Source: Camillea tinctor (lineage: Eukaryota; Ascomycota; Sordariomycetes; Xylariales; Xylariaceae). From it: DNA of 64,000 nucleotides. Below, in pieces: positions 32,638 to 58,395 of the stretch. Each line of letters opens with the position of its first letter. Position 1 is the first letter of the stretch. The position numbers and the translations under genes are program-made. The DNA lies in the NCBI GenBank assembly GCA_022578605.1, contig MU394063.1:310001-374000 (forward strand), read 5' to 3'. The notes under the pieces were generated by a model. It did not search any database, was not told the DNA's origin, and was given only the letters and a program-made list of their open reading frames with translations.

Positions 32638-33087
32638 CTAATGGCGGCAATTGCCCGTCTTGCAACCTTCGCAGAGTTCTGACCGGTGTCGTGGACCTTC
32701 CTTCTGGTTGTAGTATGGTGCCTTTACCTCGACTCCTGCCCACTTCTTGAGCCGGTATGAGACTCGTTCGACGTATGACTGCTCATCAAGGGTGAGGGTC
32801 CCGAGGCGCATACAGGATTTACATCGCTGATTGAACACTAGGGCGTTGTATCCGTTCTTGAGATAGCTTCTGATCAATATTGCCACCACCTTGCTAGTCC
32901 ATCCACTCTTGCGACATTCCTTGTTATTGCACTTGAACGATCCCATCACGTTGGTTTTGTGGTCATCCTTGAGATTTTTTGCGGTGTTTAGTTCGTTGAA
33001 CCATACGGAATCGATATCGTCGCCTATTGCGTCGACGACACGTTGGTGGAGATTCGGGAACATGTAACTGCTCTGTGGGGTTGCCAT
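32638..33087 (-). CDS. 3CxxC-type zinc-binding domain protein
   Basis: The best start is the Met at 33087 (MATPQSSYMFPNLHQRV), giving 149 aa; the open frame continues upstream to 33330, but that part has no family resemblance. The fold is the 3CxxC zinc-binding domain. Pairs are visible as MGSFKCNNKECRKSGWTSK, FNQRCKSCMRLG and, at the C-terminus, SELCEGCKTGNCRH, with the typical YVERVSYRLKKW segment between them. Related domains occur in animal receptor-transporting proteins and in many fungal small proteins of unknown function. No membrane segment is visible. It lies alone at the left edge of the accessory region. Confidence 0.82.
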   Translation of the reverse strand: MATPQSSYMFPNLHQRVVDAIGDDIDSVWFNELNTAKNLKDDHKTNVMGSFKCNNKECRKSGWTSKVVAILIRSYLKNGYNALVFNQRCKSCMRLGTLTLDEQSYVERVSYRLKKWAGVEVKAPYYNQKEGPRHRSELCEGCKTGNCRH

Positions 33088-33900
33088 TTTGGAATGTAGC
33101 AACTGTGATTTTGCGTTGGTGGCGTAAGGTTTATAGTGTGATATCGCAACAGCAACATGTTCACATACGGTAGAATTATGTTTTCGATCTAGAATATGTA
33201 GGTGGTACTTGTATAGTTGTGAGATATAATATCTAGTCATCCTGGACTTCATGTTGTGAAGGCAAGGCTCGAACCCCTCTTCCCTAAATGTCTTGTTCGT
33301 CGACCCGACTTCCAAGAGCGACCATGCCATAAATTAAACGAGATGATTCTATAGGCCACCCCGATTGTTCTTGATTGGTGAAAGCACTTTCCACGTTATA
33401 CTCGCCACACACACTGACACGACTTATGTCCAGGGAAGTCTTCCAGTCTCACTTCAAACGGCTGATTCTGACCCTACCAATTATATCAACTGTTAAGTAT
33501 TGAATGCCTGTATTTTGTAGATCGGTATCCCCGCTTCGTAATATGGACTCATGTGTCTCACTCGCTGATATGAGATATGATTACACTGACAATAACACCC
33601 CGGTACGATCGCAGACATACCTATGCTCACAACATGCAAGTTGGCTAATCCGTAGACCACTGAAGTCCTAATCTGGGTCCAGCCTACTCACCGTCTTGAC
33701 TTGTTGATTTTCTTTTTCGATATATCATACAGTAATTCTACCCGACTCGGGTGGGTAGTGGGAGAGATAACACGCACATACCCGGGTGCCCGACGCCGAG
33801 CCAATCGTAGATCGAGTTCGCGCTAGGTTCTAATATTTTTTCCCGTTGGTGCCGATTGTCAGTATGATCTGACAGTTTCCGTGACACGGGAGGCTGCTAA

Positions 33901-34872: not shown

Positions 34873-36663
34873 TCAAAGTGACTCGAAATTCCGCTCACGT
34901 TCATGATGGAGAAGCTCATCGAGAGCAGACATGTATGTACTCATGGATTCCAATCGACCATTAGTAGCGTCTGAAATGCCCTGCATCCCTGAACAACTAG
35001 AATCTGGTTCCGGTAGGATCGCAATAGAGAGTGTAGAAATATGTTCGGACACTAGCTGTTCGCAAGTCGAGAGAAGCGAGGGTCTGTGTGAACATAAGGC
35101 ATTTCCATCTCCAATAAGTATTAACAGTTTTCGGCTATCCGCATTCTTCTTGAAGAGATCATAGGCCTCTTTAAGGCAATGGGTATAGTCCTCAGAGTCT
35201 CCTCCATCATGAGTATCCATGATTTGAAATGTTGCCTCGGAAATAGCCTCGACGGGGTACGAGGCAAGATGACTATAACCACCGTGAATCACAACCCCGA
35301 CTTGAATGTTCTCATTGACTGACTTGACCATATGTAGTACATCTCTGTAGACTTGCTTGACCTCATGAATGACCGGGGTGACACTACCGCTAATGTCAAC
35401 ACAGATGATGATTGTCTGGGGGGAGGGCTTGCTTGACTTTTCAAGCTCCTGAAGACTCAGCAGTTTTTGCGATTCCGCGAGGGATTGATCGCGCGCCTTC
35501 TCCAGCTCCTGCACTTTCTTCAATTCTTGTGCAAGATGATTTTCTGCCTCTGCGTGAAGCCTCTCTGCATTGTCCTTTTTCTTGACAGCGTCCGCACAAG
35601 CAGAGCGGAGGGTGTCAATTTCCCGTTTGAGGGTTTTAGCCTCGGCACCTTTGGAACCTAGACGTTGCTGGAGGTCACGTTCGCGTGACTCGTGTGACTT
35701 CTCCATATTGGAAATAGTTTTAATCACCTCATGATGCTTTTTACCTAGCTCGTCGTGCGCAAGAGTAAGGTCGTATAGCTTGGTTTGGCATGTCTCTAGC
35801 TCCTGGCTCAGTTTCTCGACCTGGTCGGACTGTCGGACCCAATTCTCGAGAACATCATCATACGCCTCCTGAAGTATGTGGTGATCTACGATCGACTTCT
35901 CGAGCTTCTTGGTTGTTTCATCAAGCCTTGTCTTCAACTCAACGATTTCTTCCCGCATAGCCTTCTCTCGTTGAGCCGCATCGATAGCCTGACATTCACG
36001 TTGTTGGTTTGCATCATTGAGAATTCCATGAAGTCTGGTACATTCAATCTCAAGCGCCTCGTTCCTAAAAGTGAAACCAGCTAATTCATCTTTGAGACTG
36101 ATGATTTGAGCTTCCAAATCAACACACATCTTGTGTTTATCACTGAGTTGAATTGCTAGTTCAATCCGCTGTACACTCAACGCTTGTTCTCTTCTGCGAG
36201 ATATATCACGCCGTGTGTCTGACAAAGACTGACCGCATATTGAAGTCTGAGTCCGTGGGGTCACAGTGACGTGATTAGAATCTACCGATGTAGAATATCG
36301 AGACGTTTCGGTTGTTTTAGCGGTATCTGATTTTTCCTCAGACGGGTCTGTTGTAGGGACGTTTGACCGTTGAGACGTCGATGAGGTGGTTGACATGGTC
36401 ATCTTCGTGTTTAAAGACGCCACAAGTGGCATTCGAGGTGCGTTATTGTTCTCCATGATTCTTTTCAAACAGGCTCTAGAGTAGGTAGCATATGTATGAT
36501 CGTGGCAAATATGGCAATAACGAGTAAATTCTTGTTCAAGAAGGATACTTTGGTTAATATCCGGATGGTCCCAGATACAGAAATACTCCCACTGGGGAGG
36601 AAGCTCCCTTGACCTTATAAGAAAAAGGCCTCTTTCTTGGATACTTGACAAAATACCTATCAC
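34873..36663 (-). CDS. coiled-coil protein with C-terminal von Willebrand factor A domain
   Basis: 596 aa from the Met at 36663; a later Met at 36456 (MENNNAPRMP) is an alternative, and an upstream exon cannot be excluded. Residues 27-65 are Cys/His-rich (EYFCIWDH ... YCHICHDHTYATYSRACL) and may bind zinc. A Ser/Thr-rich linker follows, then about 250 residues of heptad-rich coiled coil (about 155-410; VELKTRLDETTKKLE, QELETCQTKLYDL). The C-terminal 180 residues form a vWA domain: TIIICVDISGSVTPV at 417-431 gives the MIDAS DxSxS, with DGGDSED and LLILIGDGN following. vWA domains bind metal and partner proteins. I do not recognise the architecture as a named family. It faces away from the AAA+ gene at 37531 with 867 bp between the assumed starts. 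Confidence 0.78.
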   Translation of the reverse strand: MIGILSSIQERGLFLIRSRELPPQWEYFCIWDHPDINQSILLEQEFTRYCHICHDHTYATYSRACLKRIMENNNAPRMPLVASLNTKMTMSTTSSTSQRSNVPTTDPSEEKSDTAKTTETSRYSTSVDSNHVTVTPRTQTSICGQSLSDTRRDISRRREQALSVQRIELAIQLSDKHKMCVDLEAQIISLKDELAGFTFRNEALEIECTRLHGILNDANQQRECQAIDAAQREKAMREEIVELKTRLDETTKKLEKSIVDHHILQEAYDDVLENWVRQSDQVEKLSQELETCQTKLYDLTLAHDELGKKHHEVIKTISNMEKSHESRERDLQQRLGSKGAEAKTLKREIDTLRSACADAVKKKDNAERLHAEAENHLAQELKKVQELEKARDQSLAESQKLLSLQELEKSSKPSPQTIIICVDISGSVTPVIHEVKQVYRDVLHMVKSVNENIQVGVVIHGGYSHLASYPVEAISEATFQIMDTHDGGDSEDYTHCLKEAYDLFKKNADSRKLLILIGDGNALCSHRPSLLSTCEQLVSEHISTLSIAILPEPDSSCSGMQGISDATNGRLESMSTYMSALDELLHHERERNFESL

Positions 36664-37530
36664 ACAGAAACGTTAGCCTCCTAGACACAGTGTGGAAGTA
36701 CTGATCAGATATAATCCTAGTTAAGACAATGCAAACAGGAATCGGGAACCAAACATGCACACCATCGAAGTGAAGGTGGGTTACCACACCTTTTCCAAAT
36801 ATATCTAGCAACTACTAACCTTATCCGTTGTAGAAATGCCCAGTTAGAAATAGAAGCAATATAGGCTCTGTGCTTGATATAGGCTTCCTTGCCTTAATCA
36901 ACCATGCAATGGGATAATATAGGAAGAGTAGAATGACAGCATTTCCCTTCTTTCGCCATCATATTCTATAACATCGAATAATGCTGACTGGCTGAGGTCT
37001 TTATGAAGTATAGTCCAGTTCGTTTGTATCGGTGAGTTTCAGGCTGTCAAGCTACCATTGTTCGTTGAAGGCTGGTGGATACCTTCTCACAGTAATTGCA
37101 ACTAATCAGGGAATTCGGCAAGTGAATTGTGTGTTGTAACTATCTGAGAGTAAAGGTGCGTACCATGGAGCACTGCTACGGCTTAAATACTTAGGTACAT
37201 AGAAGTTTGCTACACTGTACGCTGGCGTGTTTCTTCAACAATAGGTTACTCCATTGTTCCATCTATCCACAATTGGTGGCCGCATTAACCAGCTTCCAAC
37301 ATTCATATATGTAACTAGCCGACTGAGTCAAGACAGTATCTAAGTAGAACTAACAACGCACTGACATGAAATAAAGCCATGTTATGGATCCGTATTCTGA
37401 CTTTGGAAAGCTTGAAGAGGCAATCATATAATACTTAAGGTGGCAGTATGATCCTTGAACTCCCTCCTTAGTTGCTTTGAACTGCATACTTAATCCACTC
37501 TTAAAATCAACATCCTACAACCCGAACATC
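36664..37530. other. divergent intergenic region of the vWA / AAA+ pair
   Basis: This is the presumed shared promoter region. Its middle (37065-37296) is a repeat that recurs directly on the other side of the AAA+ gene (40744-40935). The minus-strand frame at 36554-36811 may mark an extra 5' exon of the vWA gene but has no motif. Confidence 0.45.
37065..37296 (+). repeat. direct repeat, left copy, flanking the AAA+ gene
   Basis: Nearly identical to 40744-40935 over blocks such as AATCAGGGAATTCGGCAAG, TGAATTGTGTGTTGTAAC and ACCATGGAGCACTGCTACG. The left copy has about 35 bp that are missing from the right copy near its end. Confidence 0.85.
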
Positions 37531-39644
37531 ATGCCTTCCCATGCACTAGATGAGGGTGTGCGTCAGATTATTACTCAGTATCCTGGGTGTTCTGAAGATA
37601 TAGCAAGACATTGCTTGGAGGTCAGATTATCTGCACCATTCAAGACGATGTTGAGAATATTGACAAGTTATAGCGTTGTGGAAATGATGTTGATAAGGCC
37701 AAAGATTTGTACCATGACATTGCGGTTCGGGACTCTCCTACTATTGTCAAGGATTTAGTTAACTTTTGGTTAGAAATTCATGCCACCAGACCCTCCATCC
37801 GATGACGATGACGCCCAGAGCCAACTGGATCATGATGACAATAATCAGGTCGGGAGCGACACAGCTAATGAAGTAGAAAGCCAATATGAGATCATTGATA
37901 AAGACTACCCGTGGATGCCAAAGTTACCAATCCTACAGGTTCCGGATGGATTCAACACCACTGGTCCTCGCGACTCAACTGTCGTAGACGTTGGCGAGAT
38001 CCTTGCTGCAGTCCAGGAGGGTCGATTTGATACTGACAGCCTCCGCAAGTATCTAGGCTATTATAGCGGGGAAATTCTAAATGTGCAGCTGAATGCCGAC
38101 GTAGATGGGTATCCAGCAATGTTCTACATCGTCTCGACGAATAACTCTGGCATCATTAGAGAGTGGATCAAGCATGGGGGCGACCCAAATACGACATGGG
38201 GACCCGATGCCTTTCCAGTGATCGCGTTTTCTGTGCTGAATGGGGGACGGACCATGGCTGAGGCCTCAAGAACACTCGCTACCCTTTTGCGATTTGGCGC
38301 AGACCCTCGAGCCATCCCTAAATTCTTCTATGACCCATATAGCCGGGATTTGCCGAATGACGGGCCAACTGAGGAAGAACTCGACAACAACGACGCCCCC
38401 AAGAAGTGGTGTACAACGGATGCGGGTGCACATCTTGCTAGGTCCCTGAGCCTCTCCCAGAGATACGATCTCTATAGAGCTAGCAAGATCCAACCGCACT
38501 CTGGCCGTGAGAAAGAGCTGCTCACTCGACAGGGCGCTGAGGAAGTTTTGGGCCTTCACCAAATGATCGTTGCCCAATCAATCGCTACTCGTTGGCTTCA
38601 AAAGAAGCTACTTGCGTGAGTCTGAGATACCATAGAAACATACCGTCTATAGCTAACCAGTATTACAAGTTACTTGGCTCGACAGAAAAATAAGCCACTG
38701 GTATTGGTTTTCGCAGGCCCTAGTGGCCATGGGAAGACGGAGCTAGCTCAAAGATTCCGTGATCTAATGTCACTAGAATCGCATACAGTAGACTGCACCA
38801 ATGTCAAGCAGGATGTCGAATTGTTCGGACCGCGTCCTCCTTTTTCTGGAAATGAGAACGGCTCTGCTCTGAACAATTTCTTGGTTCGTAAGGCGGGAGA
38901 ACGGTGTATTGTCTTCATGGACGAGTTCGAAAAAACGAGCAAAGACATTCAGAATACATTATTACTACCTTTCCAAGACGGTCAGTGAACTCAATACCTC
39001 CTTAATATTTATATGATACTAACATAAGTCCAAAAGGCAAGTATGAAGATCGCCGCACTGGGAAGAGTATTGACTGTTCCAAGTCCATTTGGATTCTCGC
39101 TACGAATCAGCTGGATGGTGTCATCCAAGCCTTCTGTAAAACCAACGAGCAGGTGCTCTTCTACTCAGAAGACGAGGATGCTCAAGACAAACTGGTGGAG
39201 AAGCTCTGCCGCCAGCTCCGGAAGGAATTTGTTGGGCACTTCGGCGCACCCTTAGGCGGTCGTATCACGGAAATCTTACCTTTCCTGGTCTTCGCGGCAC
39301 CAGAGTCTGCTGTTATAGTTCATAAAGCGTTGATGGACTTGGAGACCGAACTCGCCCGACGAGTCCATCTAGCTCTCAACAAAGACCAAGATGTCTACGT
39401 TGGAAACATTAGCATGCGTATCAAGAACGATGCATCAGTGTGCTCCACGATAGCGAACGAGGAGTATGATAAGCAGACTGGCGCACGCAGCATTTTTCTA
39501 GCCGTGGAGAGATTGGTAGCGGATCCGCTAGTTGGCCAATACTTGAAAGATGGCGACATGTTTGACGAGGGCCAGGAAACTACTCACTTTGTCATTGATC
39601 GAAATGTCGATGGGGAGGTTGAGGTCAGACTTGCAGTACAATGA
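37531..39644 (+). CDS. Clp-type AAA+ ATPase with N-terminal repeat region
   Basis: Exons: 37531-37620 (MPSHALDEGVRQI), 37674-38615, 38670-38980 and 39037-39644, about 650 aa. The N-terminal part reads EDIARHCLE-RCGNDVDKAKDLY, then an acidic linker and a helical, ankyrin-like region (YPAMFYIVSTNNSGIIREWI ... HGGDPNTTWG, LATLLRFGADPRAI). The ATPase core has Walker A FAGPSGHGKTELAQRF, Walker B CIVFMDEFEK, sensor-1 SIWILATNQLD, followed by a Clp-like C-terminal small domain (YDKQTGARSIFLAVER with the sensor-2 Arg). It thus resembles the second ATPase module of ClpB/Hsp104-type unfoldases, here as a single ring domain. Exon 2 carries an apparent one-base frame shift between 37760 and 37800. A start at the ATG 37780 would avoid it but lose the N-terminus. 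The partner may be the divergent vWA protein. Confidence 0.78.
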
Positions 39645-40550
39645 TATGAGGGGATTATTTAAGTGTAGGGAGATACCTAGAATGATGATGTCTAACTTGA
39701 GCATCTCTGCAAGCCTAGATAGGTATTGATCCTTGAAATAGGGGTTGAGTGGGGAAACTCCAGCCATAAGTTGTGAGAAGAATAATCATTAATATGAAGC
39801 CAGTGTAACATCGATATGGAGTTTCATCAGATTGAGCCTTTACATTCTGAGTCCTCCTTCTTGATTTGAAGAAGTTGTATCCCTATTTATGCTACACTGC
39901 CAAACCACCTCATATATTAATACCACATACCTATTCCATACACCATCTCACAGTCGATTTATAATAGTAACTCCTGGAAAACTTAACATAAGTCTCATCC
40001 AATAGACTTATAAGTCCACAAACTACACCAACACCATAACACCACTTAGCTGTCTCTCACTCGAATCTAAATGCCCCCTTCTCGCTGATCGGCTCAAACC
40101 CTTCCGGCCACACCACCTTACCCAGGTCTCCCTCACAGTTATCTATATCCTCCACTGACCAAGCTACACTTATTTTTAAGTAATTTGTAAAATGGAGGTC
40201 TCGTCACACATTGGAGTCGGTGTCCATCGAGGCTGTCAAGTTGAGTAGGTTCTACAACCCAGCTAGGCCCCACCCACTTCTTGCCTCCTGTAACAACAAC
40301 TTTGAGGCATTTTCGCCCAATTGCTGGACTGAAAAATTCCCGCTTACTGCCTTAATTACGGTACGAATATGAGGATATTACGTGGAGAATGAAGTAATTA
40401 TTATTAAGTTGTTTTTTTGCTTTGCTTTACGCTTATGTTTTGTTTTAGTGTATTTGGTTGTTTTTTTGCGTTTGTTAGATAGGCTTGGCTATTTTAGGTT
40501 TGGCCAACGAAGCTACGGTTCGAACCTACGCAAAGACCCCCAAAGACCAC
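39645..40550. other. intergenic, no gene recognised
   Basis: AT-rich 3' flank of the AAA+ gene, then T-rich sequence. Frames are short. The frame at 40382-40612 runs into the tRNA-like segment and is not considered real. Confidence 0.4.
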
Positions 40551-40632
40551 GGCCTTATGGCGCAGTGGTTAAGCGTTTGGCTCACTGTGGTGTGGAAACT
40601 ACCAGTGCGTAGGTTCGAATTCTGCTGTGGCC
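40551..40632 (+). ncRNA. tRNA-like sequence (pseudo-tRNA or SINE head)
   Basis: An 82-nt segment with a good A box (TGGCGCAGTGG) and B box (GGTTCGAATTC) at tRNA spacing. Its ends GGCCTTA and TGTGGCC pair apart from one mismatch, and the T arm (GTAGG/TCTGC) pairs with wobbles. I could not find a convincing anticodon stem, so a working tRNA is unlikely. A tRNA pseudogene or the polymerase III head of a SINE fits better. Confidence 0.45.
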
Positions 40633-40743
40633 TCCTGCAATTCTTAAGCCTTGAAAGGGGGCTTTAGAATTACAGCGACCTTTTCTTTAAATATATGGTT
40701 AGGTTTTTTTTTTAGCGCTGACCTTTTATATATTAAACCTATT

Positions 40744-40935
40744 TGAAGGCTTGTGGAGGCCTTCGCACAGTAATTACAGCTAATCAGGGAATTCGGCAAG
40801 TGAATTGTGTGTTGTAACTATCTAAGAGCAAAGGTGCGTACCATGGAGCACTGCTACGGTTTAAATACATAAATGTTTGCTACACTGTACACTAGTGTGT
40901 TTGTTCCACAATAGGTGGCTGCATATACCAGCTGT
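40744..40935 (+). repeat. direct repeat, right copy, flanking the AAA+ gene
   Basis: Second copy of 37065-37296. The differences are mainly C->T/G->A transitions (for example ACGGCTT versus ACGGTTT, GCTGGCG versus ACTAGTG) plus one internal deletion. Confidence 0.85.
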
Positions 40936-41295
40936 TAACACTATTTTATTAAAGCGGTATTTTTTTAATTATTAAAGTTTTTTTTATATTATTAACATAT
41001 TAATATAAAGTTTTTTTTAAAAAATTATTATTTTAATTATTTTATATTTTATATAAAATGCAGGTTTATAATATATAATAATTAAATAAATTTATTTAAA
41101 CGTTAAAAATTAACACGGTTTTATTAAGTTTAATAAAGTTATGTAATTTTATATATTAATAAACTTTTTTAACAATTAATTATATTTTTATTATTAATTT
41201 TATAATAATTTTTTAATAATTTTTTTATAATTTTTTAAGTTTATTTTTTATTTATTTTTTTAAACTTTATTTAATAAACTTTATTTTTATTAATG

Positions 41296-41463
41296 CAATC
41301 ACTATATATTAAGGGGTGTATAGCACCCCACATAAATAAAATAAGATAAGGACTAGTACTAGCACTAATAAATAAGATAAAAAAATAGCAATATTTAATG
41401 TTGCACTTTCTCATCTTTTTACATACTTATAATACTACTTTATACTGCCACATTTTGCATTAT
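41296..41463 (+). repeat. RIP-affected direct repeat, unit 1
   Basis: Aligns with 41572-41760 in the same orientation: GTGTATAGCACCCCACATAA here versus GTGCATAACACCCTATATAA there, and CACTTTCTCATC versus CACTTTTTTATT. The changes are almost all C->T or G->A. Confidence 0.75.
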
Positions 41464-41571
41464 TTATTAAAAACGTGTTTTTATAATAAATTAAATTAAA
41501 TTTATAAAATAATAAAATATATTTATTTTTTATTAATAATTATATAATAAAAATAAATATATATTTTTAAT

Positions 41572-41760
41572 GTAATCATTATATATTAAAAGGTGCATAA
41601 CACCCTATATAAATAAAATAAAGACTAATATTAACATTAATAAATAAAATAAAAAAATAATAATATTTAATGTGCAGCGTAGCTGTATATTTAACGTTAC
41701 ACTTTTTTATTTTTTTACATATTTATAATATTACTTTATATTGCTATATTTTACATTAAT
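41572..41760 (+). repeat. RIP-affected direct repeat, unit 2
   Basis: Second unit, offset by about 276 bp from the first and more heavily converted to A/T. It carries a short insertion near GTGCAGCGTAGCTG. Confidence 0.75.
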
Positions 41761-42348
41761 TAATACTTTTTTTTAATTTTTATAAAATAATTAAAACTTT
41801 AAAAATTTTAATTATTTATTTATAATATAATTAACATTTATTTTATTTTTTATAATAAAATTATTATAAATTATTTATTTATTTATTAATGGTTATATAA
41901 TAAAAAATAAAAAAATAATTATATATTTTATATATAAATAAATTATTATAATAAGTTTATTATAAATAATAATTAAAAGCTTTATAACTTTAATTATTTT
42001 ATATAAAAATTATAAAAAAGTTAATAATGTTTTTAACTTTTTAATTAAATAGTTCTTTTATTAAAAACATTTAAATATACCAGTTTTTGTTTTTTTATTT
42101 TTTATTATTATGTTTTTTTTATTATATATATATATACTTATATTAATTAATATTACTAAATATATAACAATTTAAAATAAATATAAAAAACTATTATTAA
42201 TATTTTATATTTTTATTTAAAAATATAACAATATAAAATATAATAATAATAACATTAATATTATTATTATATTTATTATAGCTTAAAAACAATAAATTAA
42301 ACAATTATAAAACCTTTAATATTATATAACCTTTTTACATTAACTTTA

Positions 42349-42920
42349 TATAACTTACACTTTAACCTTTCACGTTAAGGCCGTTATACTTTCGGTAATT
42401 AACCCTTTAACTCTTATATGTCAAGGCAAAAATGGCTTGGTGGTTTAATATTAGCAAAGGAGTTTACCGGACCTTAAATACAAGGGATAAAATGGATGGA
42501 ATAGATGGAGTAAATGGAATGGTTTATAATGACTTCATTATAAAAGAAAATAAAGTGAGTGTTGGTTATATCATAAATGATGACTAAGGGCCCCATGACC
42601 TTAGTTATTTCAAGGGACTACAAAAGGGTTAGTAACGCTTTTAACCTTTCAACTAAATAGTTCTTTTATGAGAGACACTTGAATACACCAGTCTCCAACC
42701 CTTTTATTTGTTATTATGTTTTCCTTTTTACGTACGTTCATATGCCCATAAGGCATACCAACATACCAACATTTACCTAATCTTATTGTGTTTAAAGTTT
42801 AGCAAACTCTTTAGCTAATACCGAATTACCGAGCCATTTTTGCTTTAACGTATAGGAGTTAAAGGCATGATTACTGAGGGTATGACGGCCTTGGCGTGAG
42901 GGGTTGAAGTGTGGGTTGTA
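42349..42920. mobile_element. foldback/MITE-like element with about 130-bp inverted ends
   Basis: The first ~130 bp (CACTTTAACCTTTCACGTTA ... AAAAATGGCTTGG ... AGGAGTTTACCG) match the reverse complement of the last ~130 bp (CACTTCAACCCCTCACGCCA ... AAAAATGGCTCGG). Differences are nearly all transitions. The interior (about 42530-42740) also matches 41900-42130, which is a more strongly AT-converted copy. There is no coding capacity, so the element is non-autonomous. Confidence 0.7.
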
Positions 42921-43014
42921 TTGTCACAGTTCCACTGCTGCCTAGCAGCTGTTACTGTGGAGATTGTGCATAAACCTTTTACACGTATGCTTAGGGGCTG
43001 TTCGGCAACTTTAG

Positions 43015-44198
43015 GGGGATGTTTGGCAACTTCAGCAAAAAAGGTGCTGAATCCTTAAAGGGCAATGGCCCGTGCCAGTGACTTCGACGAGCAGGGGGGA
43101 TTTTCCGACATGTATCTGTGGGGCTATATAGTGACTTACGCACGAGCTAAAAGTCAGCGCACTAGTTTCGCTAAATTTTTTATCGGCGATGCACCTAATA
43201 AATAAGGGGGTGGTCATGCACTTTAGCAACACCATGCTTAATACCCACAAGCTGCTTATTCAATAAAGCGTTCACGGTAAAAAGCAGCTAAGCCCCATAT
43301 AATTTCTTAAAAAAAGTGCTACTAAATCCCCACATTAATTAATTTAATAAATATACGCAAAATGGCTTAGTAAATTTTTAAGCTAACTAGCCATTAAATA
43401 TCAGCTTATTTAATGTTTTTTTTTTATTTTAAGTTATACGTTTTACTATAAATAAAGCCATTTACAACTTAAGCTATAAAAGGTTTAAAAACCATTTAAT
43501 AAGTTTTTATAAGAGCTAAGTTCCTTTATAACCGCTAAAAAAGCCTTATAACCAATTAAAAAAGTTAATTAACCTTTTTTTAATACTTTTTAAATCCCTT
43601 ATTAGCTATTATTGCTTTTATTACAACATACCTTATATAACCACGACCTCCATTATAAAAAATAAATATTGCAAATTAATAAAATACCTGCAATAAAGTA
43701 ATAATTATAGTGGTTATAAAGGTTACTTGTTAATTAATTTAACTAACTAGTTAATATACAGGTTTATACGCAAAATTAGGCAATGTACATACTAAAACAC
43801 TAAAAACTATCGTGAGATTTTTCAATAAGCACAAGCCCTAATAACATAAAAAGTAAAAAGTCAGCAATCAATTCAACATCGTAAGGTTAAAAGTTAAATG
43901 TTTAAACGAACAATTTAGGTTAATAGCATAGCCAGCAAAAGCGATTGCTATGTAAAGCAGCTTTTTTGCTAGGATAACACAGACCTAAGCATAATCCTGC
44001 TTTTTTTCCATGACCATCCCCTAAGCATTATTTCGCTGAATATGGAGTTTCAGTCATATAGCAGTTTCGAGGCAGTTGAATTCTACAAAAGCAGAACTAG
44101 AAATTCCGAATTACTCCACTAAAAAGCATTAACCGTGTAAGTAGGTACCTCCTACCGCCCTATAAGTTTAATCCTGCTGAATGTTGCCAAACATCCCC
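43015..44198. mobile_element. degraded DNA transposon with inverted ends and TAG target duplication
   Basis: Begins GGGGATGTTTGGCAAC, then TTCAGCA; ends with the inverse (GCTGAATGTTGCCAAACATC then CCC). It is flanked by TAG at 43012-43014 and 44199-44201. The length is 1184 bp, and the interior is AT-rich with no intact transposase. A partial TIR-like sequence (GGGGCTGTTCGGCAAC) sits just outside the left end, suggesting nested insertion. Confidence 0.65.
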
Positions 44199-44560
44199 TA
44201 GGCAAACCGCGACAAAGGTACTAGCATGGTCCATTGCCTTGTATGGCATTTAGTAGCTCTTTGCTGAACCAAAAAAACACGCCTTAAGTTTGTTAGGTTA
44301 ACTTTAATTCTTACTTCAAGCAGCTACTGGGTTGGTGAGGAAGGTGCTTACAGCCACCCTCAGGAGGTATAAAAGAGGGGTCGGACACTCCAGTTCAGTA
44401 CCTTTGATCACCGACATCTTTACAACTAATTCATTTATTTTCTGGCTGTGCCGTACTCCACCAGATCCTTAGTACTACATGCTCATCCGTACCAATCCAG
44501 AACTGTCCTAACTCATCCTGATCAACAACTGCACTCTCGAAACGCCCTGATTCCACCCCA

Positions 44561-47098
44561 ATGGACGACATCGAGAACCTGCGACGTTTGATTGCAGAGG
44601 AGGAAGTTCGACTCCAAGAGGAGCAAGCTCGACTCCAAGAGGCTGAGAGTCGCGCTCTCGATGAGCAAGCTCGACGCCAAGAGGCTGAGAGTCGCGCTCT
44701 CGATGAGCAAGCTCGACTCCAAGAGGCTGAGAGTCGCGCTCTCGATGAGCAAGCTCGACTCCAAGAGGCTGAGAGTCGCGCTCTCGATGAGCAACGCCGA
44801 CGTGAAGAGGCAGAACAGGTTTCACGACCACTGACGCTTATGCCTTATCTTGAGGCTTGTCATTCACTCAGTCTTGCCATCCAGGTAGTCACTGATCCTT
44901 CTCAGACTACGCAAGACGTCCCGACTAATCCTGTCGGTCGAATTTATCCCAAACGAATCATCCCGTGGGATGATTTCCCAGCGAGACAAGAGGAGATATG
45001 GAACCAACTCTCAGAGCCATCCTTCACCTCCCAGCATCAATTCCCATCCCAAAATCAGATGGACTACGTAATGTCTGTAGTCCGTCCTATTAGCAGCGAG
45101 CATGGGCTTCAGTACTTCGAGCGCGACACAGTCGAAAACGCGGTGCAGAAGCTAATTCATGCGGTGAACGATAATCCACTACTGCGAGACCGCCTTGGCT
45201 TGCGGGGAACAGTGACGTTCGAGAGTCACACAAACCTTGGCAACAACGATCATAGTCTCTCTGAGTCCCTGGAAGACAAGTCCCTCAGTCAAGGTGATGC
45301 TGGTGATCCGGCGTCGGCCTCGACGGCACCCACTCATAAGGTTCAGAGCAAGACAAAGGGGAAGGGGAAGGGGAAGGGGAAGGGGAAGGGGAAGGGGAAG
45401 GGGAAGGGGAAGGGGAAGGGGAAGGGGAAGGCGAAGGCGAAGGGGAAGGCGAAGGGGAAGGCGAAGGCGAAGGGGAAGGCGAAGGGGAAGGGCAATCGAG
45501 TGGACCACTTCTGCATATACGGAATGTCGGGCGGCAAAAGCGTCGCCAAGACGGCAATCGAGTACAAGGCGCCGCACAAGCTGAATCAGGACCAGGTAAT
45601 CACGGGTCTGACCTCTGAGATCCAGCCAGAACGTGACGTGATCAACAAGGATGGTAAGGACTTCGTGTTTACGTCAAGGGCGCTCGCTGCGGCTATCATC
45701 ACCCAGCTCTTCTCATGCATGATTAGCAAGAGCATCCAATATGGCTATGTCTCTACGGGACAGACCTTCGTCTTTTTGCACATTCCAGACGATCCCACCA
45801 TAGTCTACTATCATGTGAGCGTGCCAAACTTGGACGTCCTCGACGACGACGAATCCAGGCTCCACCGCACAGCCGTCGCACAGGTCTTCGCTTTTGTCCT
45901 CCAGTCCCTCCGTGCGGAACCGCCTGAGCAGACGTGGCATGACGCGACCGCAAGGCTCGATGTCTGGGCTGTGGAGTTCGACGATGTGCTAAGCAGAATC
46001 CCTGAAACGGTGCGCAAGGGCAAGGAGCCTCGTGCTTCCCCTTACAAGGCCCAGCGCTGGAGTGGCTTTAAACGCTCGCCGATTCGGACCCGTTCAAGCT
46101 GCCGGCAACCTGACATCAATTCCAATCCCAGAGAAGACAGTGACGATGAGGCTGGCCCCCCTTCACCGACTGCAGATCGGTCGACTCGTTCTGGCAAGAA
46201 CGCAGCCATTTCAGGCTCTAGTGGGAGGCAGGGACAACGTGGGAAAGGAGGGCAGCATCAGGGCGGAGCGGGGCGGGAACGAATACAGGACCGCCCATAT
46301 TGCACTCATGAATGTCTTTTGGGTTTGGCATACGGTGGACCAATGGACAAGAGCTGCCCTAACGCTGGTAGCCACGGACCAAGGCATATCGACAGAATGA
46401 AGTTCCTACGTCTCCTCCGCGCTCAACTGGCGAAAGACCGCGGCGCTGATGCAGACGCCATCCCGCTTTACTTGTCCGGCGCGGTTGGAGCGGCCATCAA
46501 GGTCCGCCTGTCGGATTATGGCTACACGCTCGTTGCCAAGGGTGTAGAAAGACCAGACCTTAAGCGCCTCCAGCACGAGGAGAAGATTTACGATCAGCTT
46601 CGCCCTATCCAGGGAAAGCACGTTCCCGTGTGCCTCGGCCTGACAGATCTGGTCCTGCCATACTACTATGATGGTCGTGTTTGCAAATACTTCCTTTTTC
46701 TCAGTTGGGCAGGGGAGCCCCTATTTCTGCGCCGTGGCGAGATCAGCGAGGCGCCTGTCATTGCTGCGGTCGTCAGGGCCTTCACAAGCCTACACAAACT
46801 GCAGGTCCTCCACGGCGACGCGGAAGCACGTAATATCACATACGATGAAGCCCCTATGATTGTGGATTTCGAGAGGGCGAAGGTCTACAGCCTTCAACCT
46901 CTTAGCTCGATCAGCCCAAACAGCGAAATTCGGAAGAGGAAGCGCGACGTGTTACAGAAGCAAGGAAATTGCCCCTTTGCTCAAGAGCTACAGTCGGTCG
47001 TGGAGAGTGTCTCGAGGTGTTTTGGTAATTTCAGTAGGGTCACTATGCCAGGTGGCTTAGACTTCCCCACGAACAATTCAGACGCACATACGGAGTAG
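44561..47098 (+). CDS. kinase-like protein with in-frame tandem repeats
   Basis: A single 845-aa exon with normal GC in an AT-rich setting. The N-terminal coiled coil contains about four copies of a 14-residue unit (DEQARLQEAESRAL, 42-nt DNA repeat). A conserved block follows (YLEACHSLSLAIQ, RIIPWDDFPARQEEIW, MDYVMSVVRPISSEHGL). Residues about 265-309 are a Lys-Gly run encoded by a 6-nt repeat. Then comes a region with PYCTHECLLGLAYGGPMDKS and CPNAGSHGPRH (Cys/His, possibly zinc-binding). The last 220 residues are a divergent kinase fold: GYTLVAKGV (lysine), LQVLHGDAEARNITYD (catalytic HGD and Asn) and MIVDFERAKVY (DFE rather than DFG). I recall expanded families of this architecture in pathogenic ascomycetes; substrate and role are unknown. 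Confidence 0.8.
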   Translation: MDDIENLRRLIAEEEVRLQEEQARLQEAESRALDEQARRQEAESRALDEQARLQEAESRALDEQARLQEAESRALDEQRRREEAEQVSRPLTLMPYLEACHSLSLAIQVVTDPSQTTQDVPTNPVGRIYPKRIIPWDDFPARQEEIWNQLSEPSFTSQHQFPSQNQMDYVMSVVRPISSEHGLQYFERDTVENAVQKLIHAVNDNPLLRDRLGLRGTVTFESHTNLGNNDHSLSESLEDKSLSQGDAGDPASASTAPTHKVQSKTKGKGKGKGKGKGKGKGKGKGKGKGKAKAKGKAKGKAKAKGKAKGKGNRVDHFCIYGMSGGKSVAKTAIEYKAPHKLNQDQVITGLTSEIQPERDVINKDGKDFVFTSRALAAAIITQLFSCMISKSIQYGYVSTGQTFVFLHIPDDPTIVYYHVSVPNLDVLDDDESRLHRTAVAQVFAFVLQSLRAEPPEQTWHDATARLDVWAVEFDDVLSRIPETVRKGKEPRASPYKAQRWSGFKRSPIRTRSSCRQPDINSNPREDSDDEAGPPSPTADRSTRSGKNAAISGSSGRQGQRGKGGQHQGGAGRERIQDRPYCTHECLLGLAYGGPMDKSCPNAGSHGPRHIDRMKFLRLLRAQLAKDRGADADAIPLYLSGAVGAAIKVRLSDYGYTLVAKGVERPDLKRLQHEEKIYDQLRPIQGKHVPVCLGLTDLVLPYYYDGRVCKYFLFLSWAGEPLFLRRGEISEAPVIAAVVRAFTSLHKLQVLHGDAEARNITYDEAPMIVDFERAKVYSLQPLSSISPNSEIRKRKRDVLQKQGNCPFAQELQSVVESVSRCFGNFSRVTMPGGLDFPTNNSDAHTE
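44620..44790 (+). repeat. 42-bp in-frame tandem repeat
   Basis: About four near-identical units of GAGCAAGCTCGACTCCAAG plus GCTGAGAGTCGCGCTCTCG, each encoding 14 residues of coiled coil. One unit differs by CGACGCC instead of CGACTCC. Confidence 0.9.
45352..45490 (+). repeat. 6-bp in-frame repeat (Lys-Gly tract)
   Basis: Uninterrupted GGGGAA/GGCGAA hexamers encode alternating Lys and Gly/Ala. This kind of tract varies in length between isolates. Confidence 0.9.
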
Positions 47099-47696: not shown

Positions 47697-50600
47697 TTAG
47701 CAGTACCTAGGTAAATTTTCTCTCCTCCATCCCCCCCCTTGCCTTACTTTCAGACTTCTTTTTTTTTGTTTTTTATAACCGTAGTCCTGGTCACTCGAGC
47801 TTCGTATATATCGTATAATCAGCAAGTTTACTTTAGATACTAGTTGCTGAAGGAGCTTTAAGATACTTACCTGCTGCAAGCACGTTTCTGCACATCGCAC
47901 CTGAATTCATGATCGGCATAGTGAATTTGTTTTACGTGCATGTAGCACTTGAAGCAAAGCTCATAATTGTCGCAGTCTTCATGCATGCAGTGGTAGTGCT
48001 TCGACTGTCTATTCTATAGGGTTGTTAGCCATTGCTTTAGGGTTATAATATCCTCTCTTCGTTGTACTCACCAGGAAGCAGAAATCGCACCACCCATCAT
48101 TTATTCGTCCGTCAGGCAACCCCTTAGCCTTGTCACCAGGGTCTCGGAGGAGCTTAAGCTCTTCGCTGTTGGTCATGCCATGAGCAACAGCAATGTGATA
48201 AGGCGTCCAGTTATCTTTAGTACGAGCCTCAGGATCCGCTCCTGCATTCAGCAATGTTTGTATGACCTTCTTGCGCGGCAATCGACATGCCCAATGAAGC
48301 GGCGTCCAACCGGCTAGATCTTGTTGATTGATTAGATCCCAACTCTTATATCCATTCTCAATACACTTTGTGAGGATCTCTGCTATCCTGTCGACCGACT
48401 TAGAAATAGCTGCATAGTGAAGAATGGTCCCGCCTTGTCTGTCACTATTAGGTCTCCACGACACCTGGCCGAGCTTTTGATAAATGTCTTTGGTGTTATC
48501 CCAGATATTTTTTACTTGCCTCCAGCTTTTGCATCTCAATACGGCTAGGTGCAGTGGAAGGCGCCCTGCTGTGTCGATGACATGCAGTGAGGGTCTAGAT
48601 TTGTTTATCAGCCACGCTATTACATTCTTGTCCACATCATGACTAGTAGCGATATGTAATGCCGTAATGTGTAAACTGTCTCCGGCTAGTGGAGCCGCTC
48701 CGTACTGGTCAAGGAGATCTAACATCTCAATACACTTAGATGGGCCTCTAAAAAAATCACAAGCAGCACGCCTGATCAACATCCTATACTTTCCCGGCAC
48801 AAGACTGGCATTTTCTATTTTGCTTCCGGTTCCAGCGGATGTAGCAGTATGCAAAGGTGTTCCATCAACGGGATCTCCTTCGTCGACATATTTACGGGAG
48901 TCAGCGTAGGTCAGTGCTTTCCTTGCTGATATGTCCTTAGCCGTATTGGAGACAAACCATATTTCTAGGACAAGCTTCAACAACTCGCTATTTCCTCTCG
49001 TCATGGCCGTCATTAGCGCCTCGAACAATGTTAGGCCATCCTGATGCCTCCCTTGAGCGTAAAATTGTAGCAGCACATTGGTGACGGAAGGGACGGACAT
49101 AAACTCGGAAATTTTGAGAAGGCTTCCATAATGTTTCCATCCCGTAGGCAACTTCATTCTGGCGCCCCTCTCAAGAAGTAGGCGGACAAACAGTGGGCAT
49201 CGAAGATAAATTGCCCAGCCCAACGGGCTTTGCATGTCTCCAGACCCCTCGATTTCCAGCTGTGCACCACAGTCCGCTAGGAGTTTAGTGATTTCAAACA
49301 TTCCTTTCCTCGTTGATAAAAGAATGGCGGTATCACCGTCTGAATCTTTGTACTCCGTATCAGCGCCCCGTAAGACAAGAAGTTGTACCACTTTCGAATG
49401 CCCCCCCTTTACGGCTGATAAGAGTGCACTACTGCCATCGACACGCCTTTTATTCACGGGACAACCCAAGTCGAGGAGGTATCTCGCAACTTCACAATAA
49501 CCGTTCCCTGCTGCTTCTATGAGACCCTCCGCTCTTTGTTCATCGTTGTAGTGGCTAGCGAGTACCTTAACAGCTTGAAGCTGCCCTTCTGCACAAGCGG
49601 TGGCAAGTGGCGTACGCCCATGTATATCAGAAGTAGTAACATCGGTACCATCATTGAGAAGGGCTTTGGTGGTCTCCCAATGACCATGGGAGGCGGCAGC
49701 AAGGAGTGCCGTCTTTTCGTCCTTATTTCCATTGGCGCAGTCTTTTTTTTTTTTTAGCTCCGTTTATGGAAAGATACCGCGTAATAGACGCGAAACCGCG
49801 GGCGCTACTGATAAAAAGCGGACTGTGAGAGTACGGGGAAAGACTGTTGAGCGAGGCTCCAGCTTTCCGGACCTTGCTCATACATAGTTTGTTCCCATAA
49901 TAAGCTGCTCGGTGAATTGGTGTCCACTTGACCCCATCATCCTGAGCAGCTATTTGTTCCTTTAGACTCTCGATAGCGAGCAGTTCAATGACGGTTTCCT
50001 CGTCCCCATATTCCACCGCTCGATCTAGCGCGTCCATGAGCCAAGTCTCCTTCGCCAGTGGCGTAGTCATAGTCACACTGAGGAGCTCTCCCCGGATACT
50101 GTTCGACGTGGTAACATTGCCCAATATCTGAGCTGCTAGTTGGGCTTGGACCATGGTCTGCTCGTATGTATCTTTCAAATTTTGTTGAGCACTGATCCTT
50201 AATATGTTGTAAATATTACCACGCGCTGTTGCTATAGCTCTCACAACCGCCTCTGGTTCTATAAGATCAATCTTTGTGCTTAGAGAGGTAACCACGGCCC
50301 TGTCTCCTAGTTCAGCAGCACGAACAAGGAGTCGCCTGGCCCAAGAAAGGGGCAATTGATAGTTTGCCAGCTGGTATAGGATTTCTAAATCCTCTAGCTT
50401 GTCTAAACTAAAAAGCTTCTGCACCAGCGCGGCGTCATAAGAACCAATAACGAAACTCCTGTATGGAGGGAACGAGTAACACTCCTCAAAATAAATCCAT
50501 AGATGTACGTACGTAGGGTCCTTCACAAAAGAGGAGAATGGCTCCAAATTCTGTAATTCGAGAGAATGATTGTTATTCAAAGCTGAGCGATAGTGAATGA

Positions 50601-53040
50601 TCCAGTTTCGTGCCGCATATTCTGCCAGAGTGAATTGGGAAGTTGGCATCTCAGCAGTCACGTCCTTCGATATGTTAGAAGAGATACCCTGCGCAGGGTT
50701 GACTTGTTCCCAGGGTTTCTCCGTGACACGCTCTGAGACGCTGGCTCCTTTGCCTTTGACTAAATTGATAATTCGCGTTACTAGGAAGGACAAGCATGAC
50801 TGAGCAAGGTAGAGATAGGGAGAGGCATCTTTGCCAATATACTCGGATGACAATTCCAATAGAACCCGCCGCATCTCAAGATACGACACGCGAAGGAAAA
50901 CCCTGCCTAAGTTGATCTTAGCAGTTTCAGATATCATCTTAATTAAAGATACTGCCAATCCATGACGGATCGTGATTGGACTTGGGCTGTTTGGCTTAGT
51001 TTCGTCGATAGCTAGAACTAAGTCTAGTTCTTCAACAGACAGTGGCCGCGTCGCAAAGGCGACCCATGTCAGTAGAATAAACGTTGGTCTTCCCAATTGC
51101 CGAAGACGCAACGACAAGATCTCCATTGCCATATCATCGCGAAGGGGGGATTCATTATCCATTGCATACACTTCCGCGTCGCCATATTTGAGATCCAGGT
51201 AAAAAAGCCTGGTGTCATCGACATCAAATGGAACACCATCAGCAATCGTGAGGACTAACCTGAACATAGACTCCGTCCCTTGTAGGCATGAATCAATACT
51301 TTTGAAGGCTTTGATGCTTGCTGGGTTCCTAATATGCAGGAATCCGTATATCGGAACTCCCAGCGGTGCGTATATAGCGGCCTTTAAGCATATCCAAAGG
51401 CCTCTTTCCCTCCATGGCCCGAAATGGGTGTGAATCGCGTCAGTGAGAACCGGCATCAAATGCTGTATATGCAGAAAACCCCGAGGCTGTTGTGTGGCAA
51501 TCTATTTCAAGAGATCAAGGTAGATATCCGCCACCGTTACTTTTTCTTGACCATCGGCCGTCTTTACGTCCGGGCACGAGCTCCAGAGTGCTGCGGGACA
51601 CTTACGAATAGCTTGCGCAATCGAGACTAAGACCTTGTATGGATCTATTCCGTCTTCCACTCTAATCTTTGTGTAACTCACAGATACATCATCGGATGAT
51701 ACCCAATTTGTCAGTCTTGAGTGATCAAAACAGACCGTGCTTATATTAGAAGAGAGAAGCCGCGGAAACTCAGCATCGGACTTGGTATAGGCAGAATTGA
51801 GGACATCCATGAAGTGGATGAAATAATCCCAGTGTGCTGAAAACCAAAATCATATTAACATTATTTCTATAACGTATACAGAGACCTAAGGAAAGGCATA
51901 CCAATTTTAGCATTAGTAAGGTGATTCTGCAACAGATTCTGTTCATAGCGGGTCATGTGGTGTCTTAGACCGTGGTAAGCGAGCTTAATACCGATTCTGA
52001 TCTCGTTGTCAAGACCCAGCGTTGCCGAAACCTCTGGAAGAATCTATAGTTTGTATTAGAAGTATATCTTGTATTCTTGGGGTTCTTCGATTTCTCTTAT
52101 AGCAAGTCAGCGAAGTTCGGATTGGTCATAGCTTACTATAGGGTAAGCACTCGGAGACGGTGATGGTGGCTGATAATAAATAATTATGGTGAACATATGG
52201 GAGATCAAGCTAAATCTTTCATCTACACTTCCGAAATGCCTTGATAAGTCATTGATTGTGGATGGAGTCACGTTAGTCAAGAGTCCGATATAATACTCTT
52301 TTATGGCGCTGGAAACAGTTGAGTCCAGGCTGTAGGCGTTTGAAGCGCGATGGGGAGTTCCGAAGAAGATCTAGGCAAATATCAATCATTATATTAAACA
52401 CACTAAAATTCAAGGTCTGTAACGTACTATCGCACATATTTTGTGAAGGGTACGCCGATACTTTGGTTCTTGTACAGAGATGATGAGAGCCTTAGTGATT
52501 CGTCAGTTGATTTCAAAGTATAAATTTCTCGCGGCTTCATTCAAACGGACATACCAGCTTCACGATCGCTCCAGTAAAATTTTCGACCCAAAGAACAAAC
52601 ATCTCATCGAAGTTCTAGTAGTGATATCGTAAGTATACTAGTCCAAACAATGAATTATGGACACGTGGTTGACTTCGTACTATTCGGTCGAGGTAATTCA
52701 AAAGGTCTCTCGCTACCTTCTCATGATCGGCTTCAGAGAAATCCTTGTCAAATAGGCGAGACTTAGAGATGTTAAAACTTCACGAGCAGCCCGAGGCGCC
52801 TGGAGGCAGCCATGAGCTTTTCCACCGAGGTGTATTATCGTCTTGGGACCTGACAAGGCCGTATATTCTAACAACTCTAGGTTAATGTATTCGCAGTTAG
52901 CATAGACAACCTATTGAGCTTTGTGCTAAGTAAATAAAACCTCACCGAGTCTGAGGTGGTTTCCACGACTGAGCCGGATCGGCAATAGCACACGTGGGGG
53001 TGAGCACAGGAGGGGGCGTCACGATGTCCATGGTAGACAT
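47697..53040 (-). pseudogene. NLR-like gene: hydrolase-like N-terminus, ankyrin repeats, ZZ finger (disrupted)
   Basis: Read from MSTMDIVTPPPVLTP at 53040. Successive exons give FNISKSRLFDKDFSEADHEK, a segment MFVLWVENFTGAIVKL then CAIIFFGTPHR (alpha/beta-hydrolase-like, as in N-termini of some fungal NLRs), and ILPEVSATLGLDNEIRIGIK. A large middle region follows (TNWVSSDDVSVSYTKIRVED, PLGVPIYGFLHIRNPASI). Ankyrin repeats (HGRTPLATACAEGQ, AGWTPLHWACRLP) and a C-terminal ZZ-type finger (GWCDFCF, then KHYHCMHEDCDNYELCFKCY) complete it. Coding continuity is broken: in-frame stops lie near 52770 (TGA), 52620 (TAG) and 51505 (TAG), and a run of 13 A at about 49743-49755 shifts the frame. No Walker A motif is found. 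Exons are approximate. Fungal NLR-like proteins act in non-self recognition; this copy is probably inactive. Confidence 0.7.
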
Positions 53041-56800: not shown

Positions 56801-57241
56801 AAGTTATTAATATTTTAGTAGTGCGTTATACATTTAAGTGGCTAAAAAGTGGGGGTGGCTAAATAAGTGTGTACGGATGGTAAGTGTATTTACTAAGTGC
56901 TAGCAGTACTCAAATAATATCGTCCCCTTCTCCCCTCCCCTCCCCTCCCCCAAAAAGCATATAAGGAATTAGAAAATGTCTATACGTAGGGTTCTGCCTA
57001 CCTAAAAATTAAAACAAAGATGTCTCACTTAAGTTTGGGATGAGCAGATTTATCTAGTCTTACCACCTACATTTAACTTTGAATGATAGGGTTATGCAAG
57101 CTCCCGACTCACAAAATCCATATTTCAGAATAGTGTATGATTATATCCTCCCTTAAGTGGCCAAACGTTCGTTAAATCGAGTCTTTCATCTATGATCAAC
57201 GGTTATCTAGGCCTCTGGTAGATGAGGATAATACATCCATC
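53811..57241. other. intergenic region dominated by a degraded transposon
   Basis: No gene. The 2.2-kb element 54647-56880 fills most of it. The left flank is ordinary AT-rich sequence, and the right flank has pyrimidine-rich stretches and the promoter of the gene at 57242. Confidence 0.6.
54647..56880. mobile_element. RIP-degraded DNA transposon, Tc1/mariner-pogo-like, TA target duplication
   Basis: Inverted ends of about 55 bp: left CCATCCGTACACACTCATTT and right (reverse complement) CCATCCGTACACACTTATTT, continuing with GCCACCCCCACTTTT in both. Mismatches are transitions only. TA flanks both ends (54645-54646 and 56881-56882). At 2234 bp it is the size of a single-transposase pogo/Fot1-like element. 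The interior is almost purely A/T with every frame broken by stops, so transposase homology cannot be read by eye. Confidence 0.85.
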
Positions 57242-58395
57242 ATGGCTATCCACAGCCGTAGTCCTCGCACGACGGAGTCGGTTGTTTGGAGAAATAAGAC
57301 CAGGAGCACGACAGCGTGGGAGCTGACGTCTTCCGTCAGGTTCGTGTGGGATAAGTATCAAACAATTCTGTTCCATAATTTCCTCAGAACTGTCGGACTG
57401 AACTACAAAAACTGTGACCTAACCCCTTTGCTCATTCAACTCAATCTTGATGGCTACGAAACCATCAAAAACCGACTTGACCAGAATGTGCACTCTATCA
57501 TAATTGAGAAGGTGCATCGAAAGCTTAACAATACGGCTGCTACGTTGGATCAGAGTATGCTGAAAGCAGTGAGCCTAGGGTAAGTGACAAACGGACCTAG
57601 TATATTGTGAATATGTGAATATGGCATATAATTAACCCGTGAATTTCCACCAGTCCGAATTCAACATTGCAATCAAAGTGCGTCAATACTACGAAATATG
57701 CACACGATCAGTCTCCACTTCTGTCGAGTAGTCCTGTCGTGGGATATCAGCTCGATCTTCCTCATCACTTCCCTACCCCACCAAACGGACAGCCTTCCGA
57801 GCCCATCACACACTCCTTCAAAACGGACTCTTCGAAGAAGCCAAGCATGGCACAAGATCACTACGATGTTCAGGAGAAGAAGGAGACCCCAGCGTCACCA
57901 TACCCACTCCTAAAGATGCCGGCCAAGAACCCCAAGAGCAATAACACCCAGCACGTAACCATCAAACGCGAGCCAGAAAGTCCCCCGCAGCACCAACGCA
58001 CAGTATCCAAGGTAGTTCAGACAACCGAGGCGACCAGCAGCCACGCAACCAAAGCGTCGGGCCGTGGCGTGGCCCCGGTGCGAATCCAAGAAAGTTGCGC
58101 CACGCCGGTGTTGCTTGTCCCTAAGGCCACGCCCCGCGCCGAGGCTAAGGCTAGTGCTAGCACTTCTGCTACCGGCAGATCTTCGAATCACGCTGCTCTA
58201 CAGGGTCTCGCCCGGAGACTCGCCATCCTCACCACGACGCTCCGGCAGGCCGAGTCTGCGGTAGGGAAGGTGGCCGTGGAGGATAATGACACTGAGTGGG
58301 GAGAAGTGGCTGACTCGTTGTCGTTGGGGATGCATGATGTGAAGATTGATGTAGCCTGCTTGCAGGAGTTAGTCGAGAAGCGGACGAGTGAGTGA
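57242..58395 (+). CDS. hypothetical protein, two exons
   Basis: Exons 57242-57579 and 57654-58395, joined through a split Gly codon (GG|T) with GTAAGT donor and CCACCAG acceptor, giving 359 aa. I do not recognise the protein. The first 112 residues are compact and mixed-charge (SSVRFVWDKYQTILFHNFL, NLDGYETIKNRL), the middle is a Pro/Ser/Thr/Lys-rich disordered region (KREPESPPQHQRTVSK), and the C-terminal 60 residues form a probable coiled coil (LARRLAILTTTLRQAESAV). No signal peptide or membrane segment is seen. It sits just right of the transposon, at the return to GC-normal sequence. Confidence 0.6.

Follow-up and report, generated by a model that had tools for sequence, protein, structure and literature searches.

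Pairs of an AAA+ ATPase and a von Willebrand factor A (vWA) protein are known in bacteria and in ribosome assembly, where the ATPase belongs to the MoxR clade, and in midasin the AAA+ and vWA parts are fused in one protein. In the MoxR/vWA pairs, such as RavA-ViaA and the prokaryotic ternary conflict systems, the ATPase is encoded with a vWA protein that bears a metal-ion-dependent adhesion site (MIDAS), and the vWA domain has been proposed to capture peptide (PMC7159879). A locus of similar composition is described here from the fungus Camillea tinctor, in a window of 64,000 nucleotides (G000:C13:310001-374000) of a 44.7-Mb genome. It consists of two divergent genes, one encoding a single-ring AAA+ ATPase and the other a protein with a long coiled coil and a C-terminal vWA domain. 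We propose that they form a two-gene protein-remodelling module of Xylariales, a Clp-type unfoldase with a dedicated vWA/coiled-coil co-factor, and give this reading a probability of about 0.45. In contrast to the MoxR/vWA pairs, the fungal AAA+ protein has its highest scores as a Clp-type ATPase and carries a ClpB D2-small domain, a long coiled coil precedes the vWA domain, and no third component was identified. An AAA+ motor with a vWA partner is of a known kind; a motor of Clp type, a coiled-coil vWA partner to a protein that combines ubiquitin-associated (UBA), ankyrin and Clp parts, and occurrence in a fungus did not turn up in searches of open-access papers, among which the listed titles and opening lines of abstracts describe neither a fungal AAA+/vWA pair nor a UBA-ankyrin-Clp protein.

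The closest described single protein is Skd3 (human CLPB), the nearest solved relative of the window AAA+ protein by sequence and its best Foldseek match. Like the fungal protein, it contains an ankyrin part followed by one ring resembling the second nucleotide-binding domain (NBD2) of Clp proteins and a small C-terminal domain, but it has a mitochondrial targeting region where the window protein has a UBA-like N-terminus. We know of no vWA partner of Skd3. Its ATPase activity and pore-loop Tyr are reported to be needed for disaggregation (PMC7343390), and PMC4339202 places the ANKCLP gene in Holozoa. The fungal ring is also homologous to NBD2 of the ClpB family members Hsp104 and Hsp78, both of which are encoded in this genome (L001 and L002, named by sequence). 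These proteins contain two rings and a middle domain, and are not known to have ankyrin or UBA parts.

The pair has the following features, in window coordinates:

34873..36456, minus strand: vWA/coiled-coil gene, single exon, 527 amino acids; the database protein P0001 begins at the same ATG
36457..36663, minus strand: in-frame upstream extension, probably untranslated, without an ATG and with no counterpart in the aligned homologues
36457..37530, no strand: interval between the two start codons, 1074 bp, lying upstream of both divergent genes
37531..37620, plus strand: AAA+ exon 1, first half of the UBA-like domain
37674..37724, plus strand: AAA+ exon 2, 51 nt, second half of the UBA-like domain, deduced from orthologues
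37774..38615, plus strand: AAA+ exon 3, acidic linker, ankyrin-like part and linker to the ring
38670..38980, plus strand: AAA+ exon 4, Walker A, pore loop and Walker B
39037..39644, plus strand: AAA+ exon 5, sensor 1, Arg finger, sensor 2 and D2-small domain

The AAA+ gene extends over 37531-39644 and encodes 633 amino acids in five exons, separated by four GT..AG introns of 49-56 bp; the initial annotation had placed its start at 37780. The Camillea tinctor database model P0013 (616 amino acids) is 100% identical to it and joins exon 1 to exon 3. The residues of the 51-nt exon are present in orthologues such as P0014 and P0020, and are skipped in P0018 and P0030 as in P0013, in which no UBA match is found at E 0.01. 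UBA_4 is above its cut-off in P0014, P0020, P0023, P0031 and P0076, and is matched at E 0.01 by 10 of 30 AAA+ rows. By fold and Pfam match the N-terminus of these proteins is a UBA-like domain, which might bind ubiquitin.

Its ring was correctly recognized at the outset as a single Clp-like one. Walker A (GPSGHGKT), Walker B (FMDEFEK) and sensor 1 (ILATN) are all present, the catalytic residues of the one ring are complete, and both AAA_2 and ClpB_D2-small exceed their cut-offs in the window protein, the latter being matched at E 0.01 by 29 of 30 family rows. The hallmarks of the Clp/Hsp100 (HCLR) group are found together: a Clp-type ring with D2-small, an Arg finger, a sensor-2 Arg and an aromatic pore loop. 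AAA_2 scores 49.4 bits in the window protein, AAA_5 45.3 and bpMoxR 15.5 (cut-off 27). In nine further AAA+ rows AAA_2 reaches 49.8-57.4 and bpMoxR 24.5-29.2 bits; four of the nine narrowly pass the bpMoxR cut-off, and in all ten proteins bpMoxR stays at least 20 bits below AAA_2. PF20030 appears in the precomputed labels of 19 among the 120 listed AAA+ rows. No MoxR protein is among the 60 listed of 87 solved relatives, an absence that was not counted as evidence. Pfam scores, the D2-small domain, solved relatives and fold make an engine of Clp rather than MoxR type the more probable, with bpMoxR as a weak match.

The ankyrin-like N-terminus of the initial annotation is borne out by structure, although the UBA-like domain in front of it had been overlooked and no Pfam model detects the repeats: no ankyrin model reaches E 1 in the window protein, and none reaches its cut-off in the scanned homologues. 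The AlphaFold2 model of the orthologue P0014 matched in Foldseek Skd3 chains containing both ankyrin repeats and ring, with 7tts_C aligned over 526 columns at E 4.1e-20. Root-mean-square deviations are 15.0 and 16.4 for the VIA rows that cover both parts, so the relative placement of the parts differs. In a ring tree of 35 rows, Skd3 groups with the two-ring Clp proteins and not with the fungal family (94/94), on long branches and with no more than two Skd3 rows that are close. Descent of Skd3 and the fungal proteins from one ankyrin-Clp fusion was considered and is not shown by this tree. A separate tree with Clp, ClpX and MoxR rings was rooted on MoxR, represented by three of five loci (two in which no P-loop of the pattern was found were left out).

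The fungal single-ring Clp-type family is large. The protein search gave 1,997 matches, of which 120 are listed (P0013-P0132, 90% clustering), several of them with UBA and ankyrin-like parts, under labels that read only AAA, Clp or chaperone; by layout the family is apparently the counterpart of animal Skd3. A search of viral contigs with the AAA+ profile gave three weak partial matches, which align with the ring at 29-32% identity and were regarded as generic AAA+ sequences.

The vWA protein is shorter than first described. The minus-strand frame 34873-36663 has 596 codons from a GTG start, and its first in-frame ATG is residue 70 (36456). Because P0001 and the aligned homologues start at or after this ATG, the gene is 34873-36456, encoding 527 amino acids, with the frame, the coiled coil and the C-terminal vWA domain standing as annotated. 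The exceptions among the homologues are P0011 (13-row alignment), whose extension is its own and does not match, and P0140 (24-row alignment), which likewise has an extension of its own. A Cys/His-rich N-terminus, formerly regarded as part of the protein, was rejected: it lies upstream of the first ATG, has no homologous counterpart, and is not mirrored in the P0011 extension, which contains no Cys/His cluster.

The protein comprises a conserved N-terminal peptide (residues 1-24), a disordered segment (25-80), a long helix (81-295, confidently predicted for about 91-280) and the vWA domain (about 342-527). Pfam VWA matches at 26.5 bits (cut-off 23.8), and VWA_2 at 26.4, slightly below its 27. 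A MIDAS consists of DxSxS, a Thr in loop 2 and an Asp in loop 3. The site had been called intact, and its DISGS motif is indeed present, with D354, S356 and S358 of DxSxS and the loop-3 D450 invariant in the 24-row alignment; in loop 2, however, an invariant E422, followed by the nearly invariant D423, takes the position expected for Thr. In this respect the site is probably a variant MIDAS. Both the MIDAS and the N-terminal peptide are under constraint, the peptide being embedded in an otherwise variable disordered tail. Identity to Rpn10 and TFIIH-type vWA proteins is 8-16%, and the fold alone tells no function. A profile search of viral contigs found no relative of the vWA protein that would suggest a viral origin.

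A second coiled-coil vWA-like protein of 568 amino acids is encoded on another contig of the genome (C8, L018:4455-6161, minus strand), with 30% identity over query residues 342-520. In this paralogue DLGRS replaces DxSxS, and loop 3 is without GDG and has lost its Asp; it is absent at E 1 from the matches of the Pfam vWA models. Besides the window, these models match the contigs C1, C2, C45 and C60, where no match adjoins an AAA_2 match, the nearest being about 23 kb away on C1.

The pairing was followed in 24 vWA rows, 12 from a first protein search (the window's own included) and 12 added by a second search, which used the vWA domain of P0008 as query and returned 19 rows. A vWA-AAA+ link was recorded where both rows lie on contigs of identical size, the tables printing the longest contig per cluster. 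Conserved order was assessed for the vWA/AAA+ pair alone, and strand orientation was read in the window. A same-contig AAA+ row among the 120 listed of 1,997 was found for 15 of the 24 vWA rows: in Camillea tinctor, Biscogniauxia mediterranea, B. marginata, Monosporascus CRB-9-2, MC13-8B and MG133, Parahypoxylon ruwenzoriense, Daldinia loculata, D. childiae, Annulohypoxylon moriforme, A. maeteangense, Diatrype stigma, Hypomontagnella monticulosa, H. submonticulosa and Hypoxylon trugodes. We take these genera to fall into the Graphostromataceae, Hypoxylaceae and Diatrypaceae, all of the Xylariales. For Biscogniauxia, placement in Graphostromataceae is given in the abstract of PMC12783183.

Wherever both rows carry numbered locus tags, in five of five pairs, the tags are consecutive (DL766_003699/003700, DL770_001251/001250, DL767_000412/000413, AAE478_003813/003812 and SLS62_009926/009927). 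With the window counted, direct adjacency is seen six times; each of the remaining nine links denotes a shared contig, of 0.11 to 7.2 Mb, and not adjacency. The pairing withstands the refutation set by the initial annotation, which had named as counterevidence homologues that are not neighbours in other species, or vWA homologues always lacking an AAA+ partner. A quick tree was built from the 50 best AAA+ rows. A single clade of 29 rows (Shimodaira-Hasegawa-like approximate likelihood-ratio support 100) holds all 15 partners, and no vWA gene was seen for any of the 21 rows outside it. The association is accordingly confined, in the sequences compared, to one AAA+ clade of Xylariales, and a single origin at the base of this clade is the simplest reading. 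The vWA label requires nine changes within the clade, which implies frequent gene loss, missed annotation or members hidden in clusters.

The five consecutive-tag and nine same-contig pairs are not due to chance, but shared descent without function could yield them. The vWA gene may have landed beside the AAA+ gene in the clade ancestor, its order being kept by descent, perhaps with a shared promoter. This alternative is a real possibility, though we consider it somewhat doubtful. It agrees with the confinement of the pairing to one clade of an AAA+ family that is widespread with no vWA seen, and the 1.07-kb interval shared by the divergent genes in the window could itself resist breakage. However, the partners have diverged at a mean of 29% of sites (AAA+) and 50% (vWA), time enough for scrambling, and gene order and orientation are described as randomised within chromosomes of filamentous Ascomycetes, most strikingly in Dothideomycetes (abstract of PMC3219968), although this may not hold within Xylariales at the present depth. 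The constraint on the MIDAS and the N-terminal peptide also argues against a mere passenger. The neighbourhood is well supported, and from it we infer a working partnership.

Heat-shock control of the pair was considered, and the intergenic interval gave no sign of it among the elements sought: it contains no triple heat-shock element, no GAAnnTTC and no stress-response element, and one TTCnnGAA, a count reached by 126 of 500 shuffles.

In the proposed module, the domains, catalytic residues, predicted folds of single domains and conserved neighbourhood that are observed would be joined by physical contact, client capture and threading. The AAA+ protein would be a single-ring Clp/Hsp100-type unfoldase with ankyrin-like repeats, an N-terminal UBA-like domain and a Skd3-like layout; by analogy with Skd3, it most likely acts as a ring powered by ATP and draws protein through its aromatic pore loop. 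The coiled coil would make the vWA protein an oligomeric rod, and its vWA/MIDAS head, as proposed for the MoxR-vWA pairs, most likely grips a peptide or an acidic residue of a client or partner via a metal ion. The conserved N-terminal peptide is a candidate dock for the ankyrin or UBA part of the AAA+ protein, and the UBA-like domain could connect the machine with ubiquitin-marked clients. In its full form, a eukaryotic AAA+/vWA machine independent of the MoxR lineage, in which a peptide-docked, rod-shaped vWA co-factor feeds clients, perhaps ubiquitin-marked, to a UBA-ankyrin Clp unfoldase, this picture is offered tentatively and is more doubtful than the bare module.

The same coiled coil would also suit a client, with the AAA+ ring disassembling rods or aggregates of the vWA protein, which would then be a substrate or assembly client instead of a co-factor. 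Skd3 is a disaggregase (PMC7343390), and a conserved peptide in a disordered tail would fit a substrate tag as well as a dock. The invariant MIDAS residues suggest that the vWA protein binds a ligand of its own, and we regard this relation as unlikely.

Several observations weigh against the co-factor module. Nine of the 24 vWA rows, six with named sources and three from metagenomes, have no same-contig AAA+ row among those listed; for one of these sources, Biscogniauxia FL1348, an AAA+ relative (P0131, 43% identical to the query) lies on another contig. Within the AAA+ clade no vWA was seen for 14 of 29 rows. The divergence of the partners is correlated (r 0.84), which is expected from shared species history alone and was not used as evidence. 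C8 contains no AAA_2 match, and none of the frames of 120 amino acids or more within about 4 kb of the paralogue looks like an AAA+ protein by eye; a vWA relative can exist with no AAA+ neighbour, although that one has lost its metal site. The UBA_4 match of the window protein, with the 51-nt exon included, reaches 21.4 bits against a cut-off of 21.8, and the predicted TM-score of the vWA protein model, 0.39, is too low to predict its overall shape. Finally, in the tree with MoxR the fungal, Clp and ClpX groups branch from one fork in no settled order, under a long-branch warning; fungal and Clp rings as one clade are not rejected (approximately unbiased test, p 0.33), nor does the tree show them as such.

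Around the pair, the window contains several other features. A 3CxxC zinc-ribbon protein (PF13695, 80 bits) is encoded at 32638-33330 on the minus strand, about 1.5 kb downstream of the vWA gene, and an 845-amino-acid frame at 44561-47098 on the plus strand combines a long Gly-Lys/Ala-Lys repeat with a C-terminal protein-kinase-like part (matches below cut-off). A large ankyrin-rich gene resembling NOD-like receptors (NLRs) at 48009-51501 on the minus strand matches GPIID_WHD weakly and below its cut-off (E 0.0017); it is split over two frames overlapping at an A-rich stretch around 49723-49763, which may represent an intron, a frameshift or a pseudogene. Two AT-rich islands occupy 40500-44400 (GC 0.27), just downstream of the AAA+ gene, and 53900-57600 (GC 0.26). 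Their dinucleotide ratios are of the repeat-induced point mutation (RIP) type, with TpA/ApT of 1.25 and 1.28 and (CpA+TpG)/(ApC+GpT) of 0.90 and 0.78.

These surroundings had led to the suggestion of an immune or conflict module, with the vWA rod as sensor of a foreign or self mark and the AAA+ ring as effector or disarmer. Such a role recalls the prokaryotic AAA+/vWA conflict systems, and RIP-like islands and an NLR-like gene do share the window with the pair; PMC7159879, however, describes those systems with a MoxR-clade AAA+ and a third component, and no such component was identified at this locus. The distance from the pair to the NLR-like gene is about 8 kb, and no recognised effector domain is present in the two window proteins or the scanned homologues. 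Nothing specific supports an immune role, for which the gene and the islands are context and not evidence, and we consider it unlikely.

If the module reading is true, a Clp engine with a vWA partner would suggest that AAA+/vWA pairing evolved more than once and serves generally to steer unfoldases. A fungal branch of ankyrin-Clp proteins would be indicated as well, a layout so far described from holozoans. The two neighbouring genes would offer a genetically tractable pair in which to study the hand-over from a metal-dependent gripping domain to a threading ring.

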